From contig JAOPJZ010000003.1 of assembly GCA_025517525.1 (NCBI GenBank), positions 186,001 through 250,000 on the forward strand: a stretch of 64,000 nt of DNA. Reading direction: 5' to 3'. The first letter of the stretch is position 1. Every line of letters begins with the position of its first letter. The position numbers and the translations under genes are program-made. The DNA is from Natronosalvus hydrolyticus. GTDB taxonomy: Archaea > Halobacteriota > Halobacteria > Halobacteriales > Natrialbaceae. Shown here in pieces: positions 32,422-36,687 of this stretch. The notes under the pieces are model-generated. The model did no database searches. It was given only the letters and a program-made list of their open reading frames with translations, and had not been told where the DNA came from.

Positions 32422-32619
32422 ATATCCACCTGTACCGGTAGCGGGGTCAAAAGGGTGCTGTTTCGTGTTCGCCGAAATCACCTGCTGTGACCGTCTCACA
32501 CACGACATACTCAGTCTCGAGTGAGGATAACACACAGGAAACGAATGTCGAGACTGGCTACAGTAGCCGTACAAACGGGCGAAAAAACCATACCTGCCCA
32601 TCCCTTGGTATACAACCAC

Positions 32620-33453
32620 ATGGACATTCGTATACAGGGTCCCGGCCCCAGCGCACCGTTTCTCGGGGCTCGAGACCTGTTCGAAACCGAACGGGACCTC
32701 TCCCTGCCGGTGTACGTCCACCTGCGTGATGACCCCGACGAACGAACCTGGGCTGGCCACTACGACGACAGACACGTCCTGAACATCTCGCGGCAGGCTG
32801 CCTCCTCTGCAATGGCTCGCGAACTCGCGTTACACGAGTTTTCGCACATGGCACGCTACGAGGAATCACACCCCTCGCACGTCCAACCCATCGAAGAGGC
32901 GCTGTATCTGGCACTGGCCGGCCACCGTGTCGAACGCCGCCGGCTGACTCACTGTTACCAGATCGCCAATCACGCAAAAGACATCTACGCCGACGATATC
33001 ACGCTCGCCATCGGACCCGGCGAGAAACTCCTCGCGTTCCTCGAGTCCTCGCTCGCAACGGCGATTGCAGACCACGAGTCGACGCAACCACATCAGACGG
33101 CCGAAACGACCCGACTCACGGCAGCCGCCGATCCAAACCTCACCGCCGTCAACGCCGCGTTTGCCCTGGCACTCGCCGAACGACACGACCTGCTCGAGGC
33201 CGATCACCGACTGTACGACCTGGCTCGAATCGCTGCCATGGACGCACCCACAGTCGATCTCGATGCCTTCGTCCGGCAGTTCCGGGACCTCAGTCACGAC
33301 CCTGACGTGAGTAGCTATCGACAGACGCTCGTCGAGTTGACACGAGCGTACGTCCTGGGGCAACCGCCCGGATCGACGTCAGAAGCTGAGCTATCAACAA
33401 TCCGTGAAAACCGCCGCGGCTCACAACGTGGCCCTAATACTGGAGCCGACTAG
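32620..33453 (+). CDS. HExxH metalloprotease-like protein (DUF5781-like)
   Basis: This 277-residue soluble protein contains [13 protein letters not shown] at about residues 74-86. The HExxH pair is the zinc-binding signature of zincin peptidases, and a Glu further on could be the third ligand. The first part ([20 protein letters not shown]) and the helical C-terminus match my memory of haloarchaeal DUF5781. It diverges from EF-2. The ATG at 32620 is chosen; the longer frame to 32521 runs through the EF-2 promoter region. Peptidase activity is inferred from the motif only. Confidence 0.82.
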
Positions 33454-33543: not shown

Positions 33544-34305
33544 GTGATACAATCCGGAAACGATTGCAGGCGCGATCACGATGAAAGCGCCTTCGCAGCC
33601 AAATTATCGGAGTTAAAACAGCAGGGAGCTTCGGTTTTAGTCGTTGGGTCCGTCGACTCGACGTATCGAAACCACCTCGAGCAACGATTACTTGGACAGT
33701 CCTCGATAGCTCCACGCCGACAAATCGTGGTATCGACGGCGTCCGACGACGTCGATACGAATCTGTATCCAGAGCAGTATCGACCGGAATCGTTCGTACA
33801 CATCGAATATGCAAATCAGGCTCGTTGCACCCAAACAGCGGCGACCACGAGTGAGGGAGGGCAGTCGGCATCGACGACAGCTACGCCGTCGATAAGCGCA
33901 GACGAGCCGAGTACGACAACTGCCACCGACCCAGTGACGGCCGAAACGCTTGCGGATGTCGGTATTACCATCTCCGAAGCCATCGAACGGTTCGAAGACG
34001 ACGCCCGCACACTCACACCGGGCGAAGTACGACTCGGGATCACCACGCTGATGCCGTTTCTCGAGACCTACGGGCGAGAGACCGTGTTCCAGTTTTTGCA
34101 TCTCATCAACGGTCGTATTCGAGCAGTCAACGGGATGGGACACATCCACCTGCCAGTAGACGAGAATGCAAACATCGTCTCAGTGTTGACTCCGTTGTTT
34201 GACGCGACCATCGAGTTACGAGAACGAGGGGACAGCTGCCAGGAACGGTGGACCATTACAAGCGGAGATCATACCTCGGGATGGCTCCCAATGCCTCGAG
34301 AGTAG
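33544..34305 (+). CDS. DUF7504-like RecA-fold protein without P-loop
   Basis: This 253-residue protein starts with GTG. It has an N-terminal alpha/beta unit (GASVLVVGSVDSTYRNHL, no Walker A), a Ser/Thr-rich linker at about residues 96-132, and a C-terminal unit with GITTLMPFLETYGRETVFQF, a helix and HIHLPVD. This layout resembles haloarchaeal DUF7504 proteins, degenerate relatives of RecA/KaiC-type ATPases. No catalytic residues are visible. Seventy-nine bases downstream on the same strand is a CHAT protease gene, so the two are probably co-transcribed. It could be a sensor or scaffold for that protease (inference). Confidence 0.78.
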   Translation: MIQSGNDCRRDHDESAFAAKLSELKQQGASVLVVGSVDSTYRNHLEQRLLGQSSIAPRRQIVVSTASDDVDTNLYPEQYRPESFVHIEYANQARCTQTAATTSEGGQSASTTATPSISADEPSTTTATDPVTAETLADVGITISEAIERFEDDARTLTPGEVRLGITTLMPFLETYGRETVFQFLHLINGRIRAVNGMGHIHLPVDENANIVSVLTPLFDATIELRERGDSCQERWTITSGDHTSGWLPMPRE

Positions 34306-34384
34306 CTGTTTCGAACGGAGACACACTCACGCCAAACAGTCTACCAACAGCCCATCCCGGCTGAAGCTGCCAAATCCTCGAGAT

Positions 34385-36520
34385 ATGAAACCCACATTCG
34401 AACCGGTCGAGAACGGCCTCGAGATAATCGACCGAATCGAACGCCACCGGTGTCAACTCACCACACACGAGCCGGTAGCGCCGACCGCGGTTGCATCCGA
34501 TACGATTCCGTACCCGGTCGACGCAGCCGTCTCAGTGACGACGGATACGATAACACTGCCAACGAACACGTTGCCGTGTATTCGAGACGATACCGGATCG
34601 ATGATTGAGGGGATCGGTCCGGCGGGGAAAACGTTCCTCGAGGCTGACCACTACACGATCGATTTGACCAATCCGTTCAAAATATATATCGACGTCGAGA
34701 GTTCAATTCAACTCTATTTTGACCCTGAACACACACACATCGGGTTCGATGAATCGACGACAGCGGTGATCGGGGCCCGGTCCTATCACACTCGCCCTGC
34801 AGGGACGATTACGACGACCGAGGATCCCACGGACCTCATGCAGGCAGTGACGATGTTTGGCTCGGCACTGAAGACGACGACCGCCGAACGTTCGTATCCA
34901 ACGCTTCGTGGCCATCCGCCAACGCTGGAACTCGGTGAGCGCCTCTCTATTCCCAAAACCCTCGAATCACCGGACACTGGTGTCCGTATAGCGGTGCCTC
35001 CGGACCTGGCTTCGGTTTTTGTCGTGACGCCGCTTGCAGCCTATCTCGGCGCGACGCTCGTCGAAGGGGAGAAACCGGTGATTACGACTGAGACCGGATT
35101 TTCGTTTCCCCTTGAGGAGTCGGACGATTTCGAGAAGACGGTCGAACGCGTCCTGAAACACGTCTTCTTTCTCGACTGTATCGTCCGAACGGAGGGAACG
35201 ACACCCGTTTCGTTACACGCACGATCGGTTACCGAATCCGAGCTATCCTGGGATCCAGCGACGGTTTACGAACAGTCACCTGCCGAACGACTGCAGACGT
35301 ACCTCGAAACGCCGTACGAGGTACTCGAACCCGAAATCCCCCTGTGGCGACTCGAGGCCGAGTTGAAACCGACAGCCACGTCCATAGAGTTCCTGCCGTT
35401 TATTGCCAACAGCCTCGCAATCGTGACGACCGAGAACGATCAAACGAACGGGTCGACAGCACAGTACCAGCACGCGATTAATACGTTCACACGCGATTCG
35501 TCCGTTCGCGGCGTTCGCTCGAGTCAGGACGGGGCAGATGGGGGTGAAACGGAGACGACAGTGACCGGGGAGTCAAACAGCGAAGGCGAAACGCCGGAGT
35601 CAGAAGATACGGCGAGCGAAGATATGGGAACTCTGCCACCGACGATTACGCAATTCTGGCGACGACAGGATGGTCCCGATATCCGGAGTACAACACCCGT
35701 ATCAGCGTTCTATAACAGTATCGGACGGGAGCCGAGATCGGACCCGATCGAGATCGAGGTGGTCTGTAACGACCCCGAAATGCGCGACGAACTCGACGCA
35801 GTCAACGGGATCTACGGGGATCGTGAGTCCTTACCGTTCAGCGTCACCGAACACTACAACCTGACGAGGAACGAACTCGAGGAAGTGCTCACTCACGAGA
35901 GCGATTTGTTTCACTACATCGGCCACATTGACGAATCGGGGTTCCAGTGTTCGGACGGAATCTTCGATGTGTCGACCATTGACTCGGTGGGTGCCAAGGC
36001 GTTTTTGCTCAACGCGTGCCAGTCCCGTGATCAGGGGCTGTATCTGGTCGAATGCGGGAGCATCGGCGGTGTCGTCACCCTTGGTGACGTCATCAACAGT
36101 GGTGCAATCAGCGTCGGAACCGAACTGGCTCGGTTGCTCAATCGCGGCTACCCGCTGTATGCCGCCCTCGAGATCGCTCGAGAACGAAGTCTCATCGGAC
36201 AACAGTATCAGTTAGTTGGTGATGGCCTCATAACCATCGCGCAGTCGGAGACGGGAATACCCAACCTGGCCAAAATAGAGCGCTCGAACGGCCACTTCGA
36301 AATCGAACTGGAACTGTATACACACAGGAGCTCCGGGAAAGGAAGTCTTTATATGCCCTATCTGGATATGACTGGCTCGTACTTTATTAGCCCGGGAACG
36401 ATCGGCCCATTTACAGCGACAACGACCCAGCTCGAGGCGTTTCTCGAACTCGAAGAGATTCCAATCCTGTACGACGGTGGACTCACGTGGGGAAACGAGA
36501 TCGCTGACAAAGAGCTGTGA
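34385..36520 (+). CDS. CHAT-domain (caspase-like) protease
   Basis: This 711-residue protein has a unique N-terminal region (about residues 1-375, beta-rich), an acidic disordered linker (about 378-420) and a C-terminal CHAT domain. The catalytic dyad is visible: His514 in HYIGHIDESG and Cys545 in LLNACQSRDQG, followed by GGVVTLGDV and the GYPLYAALEIARE helix. CHAT proteases are caspase relatives that act in signalling and conflict systems (for example separase-like and gasdermin- or Csx29-type proteases). The ATG at 34385 is the first one after the DUF7504-like gene; the frame reads further upstream but overlaps that gene. The target is unknown. It is a good candidate for a cell-fate or defence switch. 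Confidence 0.85.
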   Translation: MKPTFEPVENGLEIIDRIERHRCQLTTHEPVAPTAVASDTIPYPVDAAVSVTTDTITLPTNTLPCIRDDTGSMIEGIGPAGKTFLEADHYTIDLTNPFKIYIDVESSIQLYFDPEHTHIGFDESTTAVIGARSYHTRPAGTITTTEDPTDLMQAVTMFGSALKTTTAERSYPTLRGHPPTLELGERLSIPKTLESPDTGVRIAVPPDLASVFVVTPLAAYLGATLVEGEKPVITTETGFSFPLEESDDFEKTVERVLKHVFFLDCIVRTEGTTPVSLHARSVTESELSWDPATVYEQSPAERLQTYLETPYEVLEPEIPLWRLEAELKPTATSIEFLPFIANSLAIVTTENDQTNGSTAQYQHAINTFTRDSSVRGVRSSQDGADGGETETTVTGESNSEGETPESEDTASEDMGTLPPTITQFWRRQDGPDIRSTTPVSAFYNSIGREPRSDPIEIEVVCNDPEMRDELDAVNGIYGDRESLPFSVTEHYNLTRNELEEVLTHESDLFHYIGHIDESGFQCSDGIFDVSTIDSVGAKAFLLNACQSRDQGLYLVECGSIGGVVTLGDVINSGAISVGTELARLLNRGYPLYAALEIARERSLIGQQYQLVGDGLITIAQSETGIPNLAKIERSNGHFEIELELYTHRSSGKGSLYMPYLDMTGSYFISPGTIGPFTATTTQLEAFLELEEIPILYDGGLTWGNEIADKEL

Positions 36521-36558
36521 TCAAGCGGCGATCAGTACCGAGTGCAGTACGGAATCGA

Positions 36559-36687
36559 TCAGGGGCCGATATACGTATCACCGTTCCCGGCAACGACCGT
36601 CCCCGCCTGGGACAGCAACAGCATGGCCGTGAACAGGACGCCGATCATTCGTGGGTGTTTCTTCAGGTAGTCGCTAAGTTCCGTCAT
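36559..36687 (-). CDS. 42-residue hydrophobic peptide (DUF7503-like)
   Basis: This small ORF codes for MTELSDYLKKHPRMIGVLF, then a hydrophobic stretch with LLLSQAGTVVAGN and a short end. It has a charged amphipathic start, one membrane helix of about 20 residues and a polar tail. The pattern (LKKHPRM.GVLF...LLLSQAG...AGN) matches what I remember of haloarchaeal DUF7503 peptides. It is convergent with the CHAT gene, 38 bases between the stops. Upstream (36700-36760) is very AT-rich and can hold its promoter. Function is unknown. Confidence 0.75.
   Translation of the reverse strand: MTELSDYLKKHPRMIGVLFTAMLLLSQAGTVVAGNGDTYIGP

Follow-up and report, generated by a model that had tools for sequence, protein, structure and literature searches.

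The locus in Natronosalvus hydrolyticus

We analyzed a 64,000-nucleotide stretch of the haloarchaeon Natronosalvus hydrolyticus (contig JAOPJZ010000003.1, positions 186,001 to 250,000, hereafter the window), which contains a gene for a 711-residue caspase-like (CHAT-type) protease (34385..36520, + strand) and, convergent to it, a gene for a 42-residue peptide of the DUF7503 family (36559..36687, − strand; PF24335, E 3.9e-23, 81.2 bits against a cut-off of 27). The two stop codons are separated by 38 bases (36521..36558, no strand). The protease gene starts 79 bases 3′ of a third gene, which has a GTG start and encodes a 253-residue DUF7504 protein (33544..34305, + strand; PF24336, E 1.3e-45, 156.5 bits against a cut-off of 27). 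An earlier reading of the window, made from the letters alone and called the sequence-only reading here, had described this three-gene layout, and its coordinates, strands and both spacings were confirmed. The comparison with other haloarchaea revealed a new feature, namely that the 3′ ends of the protease and peptide genes form one exchangeable hypervariable cassette comprising the last ~85 residues of the protease and the last ~8 residues of the peptide, with the 38-base gap lying within it. Pfam describes DUF7503 and DUF7504 only as families of unknown function, and our literature search returned no paper on either of them.

The peptide consists of an HPR motif, a hydrophobic stretch, an A-x-A-like site and a short tail ending in Gly-Pro, which in the window reads GNGDTYIGP (residues 34-42, 36562..36588, − strand) and is variable except for its Gly-Pro end. 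Conservation was assessed over 102 copies, leaving out one reading of more than 60 residues (L154; loci are numbered L and genomes G). The proline of the [HN]P motif and one phenylalanine were present in all 102 copies and a glutamine in 96, while the residue following [HN]P was R in 95, K in 5 and Q in 2. The [VA]-x-A pattern ended in alanine in all but three of the 102 copies (99), and the charge of the leader was weak. The final Gly-Pro was found in 83 copies, and the other 19 tails ended differently, for example in NGGTIS. Followed as it is by a short polar tail, the [VA]-x-A pattern looks like a signal peptidase site, although the same residues could also sit in a membrane helix. Tails of the NGGTxx type formed a subgroup (L156, L157, L158, L163, L168, L169 and others), in which the three sister pairs examined had identical tails and little C-terminal jump. 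At L110 and L167, a tandem pair of DUF7503 genes stood beside a single protease gene.

Co-occurrence of the peptide and the protease

Of 149 genomes, counting the source genome, 129 contained DUF7503 and 134 the protease. Both were present in 129 genomes, the protease alone in five (G005, G012, G039, G093 and G104, two of which are incomplete), DUF7503 alone in none, and neither in 15. A Haloferax volcanii genome used as a control had matches to both DUF7503 and DUF7504. In a sample of 294 genomes from the phylum, all 44 genomes with DUF7503 belonged to the same order.

The gene order was then determined in 100 DUF7503-centered loci picked among the matches listed, with more flanking sequence fetched on the side expected to hold a convergent protease. 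The protease was convergent and adjacent in 97 of these loci; the exceptions were L106, which had no protease in the stretch, and L110 and L111, in which it was 0.7 kb and 4.5 kb away, respectively. Counted by peptide copies, 98 of 103 lay no more than 400 bases from a convergent protease, and the stop codons were a median of 8 bases apart (range −26 to 330). The pair was also found in 74 of 80 protease-centered loci, which were the best 80 of 439 relatives, included many from Halorubrum and in a few cases also belonged to the first set; one of the six loci without the pair, L271, has just 550 bases of downstream sequence. With 97 of 100 loci showing the same convergent pair, its layout is not due to chance, and the data support the peptide-protease pair as a genuine module.

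The sequence-only reading had proposed looking for both co-occurrence and phyletic patchiness. Co-occurrence of the peptide with the protease was thus borne out. Patchiness proved to be modest: 115 of 126 near-complete genomes had DUF7503, usually as one or two copies. Such a wide presence would be unusual for a defence switch, although the number of copies and their location do vary.

Proteases occurring without an adjacent DUF7503 gene were inspected in 11 copies, with L179 as a control, and no DUF7503-like small open reading frame (ORF) was found beside them. A hydrophobic small ORF was present in three (L112, L147 and L111), and those of L112 and L147 resemble an ORF of the window that runs antisense to the gene of ribosomal protein S7. 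At several loci (L100, L108, L112, L121, L122, L137, L147 and L286-L293), a second protease lacking DUF7503 followed the trio in the same direction. The genome of N. hydrolyticus itself contains a second complete trio (C12, L179) and three peptide-less proteases (C4, C6 and C11).

The abutting 3′ ends as a hypervariable cassette

The cassette was mapped in 29 loci with a 43-residue HPKM or NPKM peptide, of which 28 came from Halorubrum and one from a metagenome-assembled genome (L212); L197, L204 and L220 dropped out of this set. The proportion of synonymous differences (pS) in the protease, calculated in 25-column windows, was ~0.25-0.41 over most of the alignment (about 0.35), increased to 0.42-0.51 in a gap-rich linker and 0.54 at the border, and reached 0.78-0.83 in the last ~90 columns. 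The proportion of nonsynonymous differences (pN) increased in parallel from ~0.1 in the body to ~0.43 in the last ~90 columns. The peptide showed the same pattern, with a pS of 0.24 and a pN of 0.045 in the leader and values of 0.76 and 0.24 in the tail, while the final PGP hardly varied in amino-acid sequence (pN 0.011). In fine windows the borders were sharp and fell at column 697 of the protease alignment and at peptide codon 36, one residue past the A-x-A-N junction. Since the synonymous sites jump as well, relaxed constraint on the protein alone is insufficient to explain this pattern, which is most simply understood as the replacement of one allele by a divergent one. In the protease of the window, the corresponding border at residue ~625 was mapped from column ~697 via the preceding shared motif, so that the hypervariable, exchangeable C-terminal beta domain covers residues ~626-711 (36260..36517, + strand).

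The leaders of the Halorubrum-type peptides (29 loci; L194-L223 in part, L243 and L264) had a pS of about 0.22-0.24, one of the computations being based on 15 of the 29 loci, compared with ~0.35 for the protease body, and several leader codons, including GCA for Ala10, were invariant in all 29. Nucleotide-level constraint or codon bias may account for this low synonymous divergence.

The replacement was also apparent in individual pairs of loci. In the 22 listed pairs with the closest protease bodies (93-95% identical), the C-terminal domains differed at 57-67% of positions in 20 pairs and at 36% and 43% in the remaining two. The loci L138 and L120 had ~95% nucleotide identity along the protease gene, which fell to 68, 47 and 51% over three windows of 120 bases before recovering to 97%, while their contexts upstream of the protease were unrelated. 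Similar dips were seen in L244/L261, L200/L214 and L205/L222, and less sharply in L235/L237 and L081/L079, whereas the identical-tail pairs L158/L157 and L102/L091 had none; the identity profiles also contain dips outside the module. The protease body of L198 differs by ~7% from those of L200, L203, L205, L214 and L222, yet its C-terminal domain differs from theirs by 60-65%. Conversely, L198 and L195 differ by 20% in the body but only by 37% in the C-terminal domain, and their tails are NVAQTTPGP and NVAQANPGP. Between the window and its nearest relative L082, the pS was 0.62 in the C-terminal domain and 0.34 in the body, with the tails GNGDTYIGP and GNGNAYIGP. No silent donor cassettes were found in the N. 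hydrolyticus genome, where all three matches at E ≤ 1 lay within full protease reading frames.

Co-variation of the tail with the C-terminal domain

Tail and C-terminal divergence were compared in 39 disjoint sister pairs from which duplicates had been removed. The pS of the C-terminal domain exceeded that of the body in 36 of the 39 pairs (p = 4.5e-11). The number of tail differences was correlated with the pN of the C-terminal domain (rho 0.71, p = 4.7e-7) and showed no correlation with the pN (0.08) or pS (0.08) of the body. The correlation with C-terminal pN was retained in the 25 pairs from outside Halorubrum (rho 0.75). The median ratio of C-terminal to body pS was 1.24 in pairs with identical tails (n = 5) and 2.16 in pairs with different tails (n = 34). 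Among the 60 closest pairs listed, four consisted of two proteases without a linked peptide, and their ratios were 0.6, 0.8, 0.9 and 1.3. Moreover, nearest neighbours by C-terminal domain shared tails beyond chance (0 of 10,000 permutations). This co-variation points to a ligand and its receptor at least as much as to a substrate and its enzyme. An association between the tail type (Gly-Pro or not) and protease residues and a mirror-tree correlation of 0.39 were both confounded with phylogeny and were not used as evidence.

Fold and active site of the protease

The sequence-only reading had assigned the protein as a CHAT protease with an intact His514/Cys545 dyad. The dyad was corroborated, as both residues (codons 35924..35926 and 36017..36019, + strand) were invariant in all 84 aligned homologues, comprising the window and 83 of 86 non-redundant proteases (L101, L110 and L129 were left out). 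The family name did not follow from sequence profiles, since the Pfam CHAT model PF12770 had no match at E ≤ 1 in either the 711-residue protein or the whole genome. The protease had no significant Pfam match at all, and no SAVED, tetratricopeptide repeat (TPR) or CHAT model of Pfam or NCBIfam was found in it at E ≤ 1. A search of the PDB sequences with the family profile returned only two matches, with E values of 0.18 and 0.43, to a GCN4 construct.

The AlphaFold2 model of the protease (mean predicted local distance difference test score, pLDDT, of 87.8) has a caspase-like fold. Its best structural match was SAVED-CHAT (8tl0), with a Foldseek E value of 3.2e-7 and a VIA Z score of 18.8 (root-mean-square deviation 2.5 over 167 aligned residues, residues 452-622), followed by gingipain R (RgpB) with a VIA Z score of 18.6 over residues 321-620. 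Separase chains had VIA Z scores of 13.4-15.7 and Craspase/Csx29 chains scores of up to 14.2. The predicted model therefore has the caspase-like, CHAT-type fold of clan CD, and the conserved residues are those expected of the His/Cys dyad of clan CD proteases. The designation "CHAT" thus holds by predicted fold and motif, and not by Pfam profile.

The N-terminal half (residues 1-350, 34385..35434, + strand) was modelled alone with a pLDDT of 94.6. It gave no Foldseek match at E ≤ 0.001, and its best VIA Z score of 7.6 (residues 1-133) was within the background; a known fold may still apply to this predicted structure, as a missing match does not make it new. In the 84-row alignment, the polar residues R132, H135, R169, R175, H177 and R268 of this half were invariant or nearly so and could form a second ligand-binding or active site.

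The protease was also found on 25 haloarchaeal plasmid records, and no copies were found in a phage collection at E ≤ 0.01. The related plasmid proteins are mostly annotated as hypothetical at NCBI, with one "caspase family protein" and one "CHAT domain-containing protein". In L216 (Halorubrum trapanicum), the protease stops early, and its C-terminal sequence looks unrelated, as if a frameshift had occurred; the peptide is intact.

DUF7504 and the genomic setting

In contrast to the peptide, DUF7504, which the sequence-only reading had named as a partner, is not a constant companion of the protease. By a profile built for this analysis, 37 of 97 loci had a DUF7504 gene next to the protease, directly 5′ of it and in the same orientation in 33 loci and divergent in four, as did 21 of the 80 protease-centered loci, and a fixed partnership was rejected. 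The description of the protein as a RecA fold without a P-loop is supported by homology only: the paralogue L184 in the same genome has a P-loop-like GPPLTGK motif and matches KaiC (PF06745, E 2.5e-7), and the CHAT-linked DUF7504 rows of the alignment lack this motif. A HalOD1 signalling domain (PF18545) was present in three of the longer CHAT-linked DUF7504 proteins that were scanned, all from other genomes (L172, L166 and L162). DUF7504 may thus be a degenerate RecA/KaiC-like sensor or scaffold, which fits this homology.

Inspection of the ORF list by eye identified the genes around the module as those of elongation factor 2 (EF-2), ribosomal proteins S7 and S12, NusA and RNA polymerase, in agreement with the placement of the module in the sequence-only reading between EF-2 and the RNA polymerase/ribosomal genes. 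A DUF5781 protein is encoded at 32521-33453 (+ strand; PF19093, E 5.9e-125), and the overlap of its ORF with that of EF-2, on the opposite strand, is confined to the upstream extension of the latter. A housekeeping role tied to the EF-2/ribosomal region was considered and rejected, as the module elsewhere adjoins glpABC-like genes, identified by eye, or others. The window and G001 (L082) were homologous only across the trio, from about −960 to +2,400 around the protease start, so the trio sits at a different place in G001. In ~20-24 loci (e.g., L117 and L129), the protease-peptide pair lay 3′ of genes resembling a glycerol-3-phosphate dehydrogenase operon, again judged by eye, and on a Halomarina plasmid (L189) it was near dhaKLM.

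Interpretation of the module

We propose that the peptide tail is the ligand for the protease's C-terminal domain and controls the protease, a reading drawn from sequence comparison to which we give about even chances. The peptide and the protease would then be an obligate two-gene recognition module, in which the peptide would consist of a conserved leader ([HN]P[RK], the hydrophobic stretch and [VA]-x-A) and a variable, usually Gly-Pro-ended tail, and this tail would bind specifically, as a ligand, to the hypervariable C-terminal domain of the protease encoded beside it. Cognate binding would switch the adjacent caspase-like domain on or off. As the tail and the domain are encoded at abutting convergent 3′ ends, a single recombination event could replace lock and key together. 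DUF7504, where present, would act as an additional sensor. Such a module might serve to recognise self, to sense density or to evade a viral inhibitor.

Several observations weigh against this proposal. Its main weakness is that the variable stretches are physically adjacent, so that their co-inheritance is expected from linkage even without any interaction. Outside Halorubrum, the tail differences showed a weak correlation with the body as well (rho 0.34 and 0.37, p = 0.10 and 0.07). In another set of pairs, in which one pair appears under two names (L149/L133 = L256/L260), the ratio was only 0.8-1.4 in 8 of the 35 pairs with different tails, some of them near pS saturation. The peptide-less pair L238/L239 had a lower protein identity in the C-terminal domain than in the body (62% vs. 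80%), and the partial Mantel correlation was modest (0.24; reached by 3 of 5,000 permutations). The window and L082 form a less striking pair, because residues 600-622 already have a pS of 0.67. The pN/pS of the cassette is below 1, so that diversifying selection is unproven. If the tail were exported, a cytoplasmic protease would meet it only after re-uptake, and the charge before the hydrophobic stretch, judged by eye, is negative in Halorubrum.

Alternatively, the convergent 3′ ends could simply be a recombination hot spot under little functional constraint, whose tail and domain vary together as DNA without interacting. Adjacency by itself predicts their co-inheritance, and the pN/pS below 1 and the different-tail pairs with little jump agree with it. 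Linkage does not, however, predict borders that lie within both genes and look functional, one at the end of the caspase domain and the other one residue past A-x-A, nor does it predict the fixed Gly-Pro, or the nearly invariant PGP, inside an otherwise variable cassette. It also predicts neither the absence of a synonymous jump in the four peptide-less protease pairs nor the small jump in the five identical-tail pairs. We regard linkage without interaction as unlikely. A somewhat different possibility, close to the sequence-only reading, is that the activated protease cuts the peptide, most plausibly after [HN]P[RK], that the cut peptide acts on the membrane and that the tail is a docking site. 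The near-obligate pairing speaks for it, the predominance of R and K after HP or NP is compatible with a basic cleavage site, and the related CHAT protease Csx29 cuts a neighbour-encoded protein according to an excerpt of PMC10028731. However, two linked copies carry Q at this position, and the protease residues inspected (460-466, 543-548 and 562-569) look ordinary. An attempt to match the R/K site to an altered active-site pocket gave no clear correspondence, as both Q variants keep D463 and the NACxS motif. Membrane topology also leads one to expect a basic residue ahead of a hydrophobic stretch, and a purely intracellular substrate leaves the exchange of tails and C-terminal domains between species unexplained. 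The peptide may be a cleaved effector, but this mechanism as a whole seems to us possible rather than probable, and the sequence-only interpretation is partly supported overall. An arrangement similar to a toxin-antitoxin pair, in which the hydrophobic peptide harms its own membrane and the protease restrains it by binding or degradation, would explain why DUF7503 was present in none of the protease-less genomes while the protease was present without it in five. The presence of the peptide in most near-complete genomes, mostly at one or two copies, is atypical for such pairs and the tail polymorphism is left unexplained, and we judge this arrangement improbable.

A bolder version of the ligand proposal is that the module is an archaeal peptide pheromone (pherotype) or kin-recognition system with a caspase-like protease as the receptor. 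A signal peptidase would free the ~8-9-residue tail, same-type cells would recognise it via the exchangeable C-terminal domain, and match or mismatch would set a proteolytic, possibly lethal response. We consider this version rather doubtful. The export, pheromone and kin-recognition versions all need the tail to meet the protease, in which no export signal was recognised. No paper on such a system (haloarchaeal CHAT or caspase-like proteases, peptide signalling, pherotypes, kin recognition or allorecognition) was found among the top matches listed, judged by title and the start of the abstract.

Caspase-like activity has been reported in Haloferax volcanii, and archaeal genomes are said in the same excerpt to be without clear homologues of the caspase machinery (PMC3615174). 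The protease described here could be the missing gene behind this activity. According to the excerpt, the activity was observed on caspase (Asp) substrates, and hydrolysis of a trypsin substrate was not measurable (PMC3615174). As the activity is Asp-directed and the possible site here is R/K, this link may be wrong.

The protease represents a near-core haloarchaeal family with a predicted caspase fold, an intact dyad and one co-inherited partner, which is seen by structure and not by the Pfam CHAT model. The lock-and-key manner in which the tail and the C-terminal domain change hints at a recognition or signalling system undescribed in archaea. If the tail is a ligand of the C-terminal domain, archaea would own a polymorphic peptide-protease recognition system, and the exchange cassette predicts that cognate tails work and swapped tails fail.

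Comparison with known systems

SAVED-CHAT (PCaspase) and Csx29/TPR-CHAT (Craspase) share the caspase-like fold and the His/Cys dyad with the predicted model of the protease described here. The present protease differs from them in that no SAVED, TPR or CHAT model of Pfam or NCBIfam matched it at E ≤ 1, its N-terminal half has no confident match, its partner is a 42-residue peptide and it is near-core in haloarchaea. Gingipains and separase, which also belong to clan CD, resemble it in fold. Gingipains are secreted proteases and separase is a cell-cycle protease, and we know of no convergent peptide gene for either.

The agr and comQXPA pherotype loci and CdiA-CT/CdiI each have a sharp-bordered polymorphic specificity segment that is co-exchanged across neighbouring genes. 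The cassette may resemble these systems, but differs in extending across the adjoining 3′ ends of two convergent genes.

In RRNPP pairs (Rap-Phr, AimR-AimP and Rgg-SHP), a small propeptide gene lies beside its receptor gene, as described in an excerpt of PMC10075063. According to this excerpt, RRNPP receptors have 250-500 residues and TPRs and occur in Gram-positive bacteria and their mobile elements, whereas the present protein has 711 residues, contains no TPR model of Pfam or NCBIfam at E ≤ 1, is archaeal and would have proteolysis as its output. The propeptides of RRNPP pairs have 10-100 residues and adjoin the receptor gene, and the peptide described here, with 42 residues and a distance of 38 bases, agrees with this description if the protease is taken as the receptor. 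RRNPP propeptides are secreted through Sec; in the present peptide, the alanine closing the [VA]-x-A pattern may suit such export, but the leader has a weak charge. By analogy, the module may work like an RRNPP pair.

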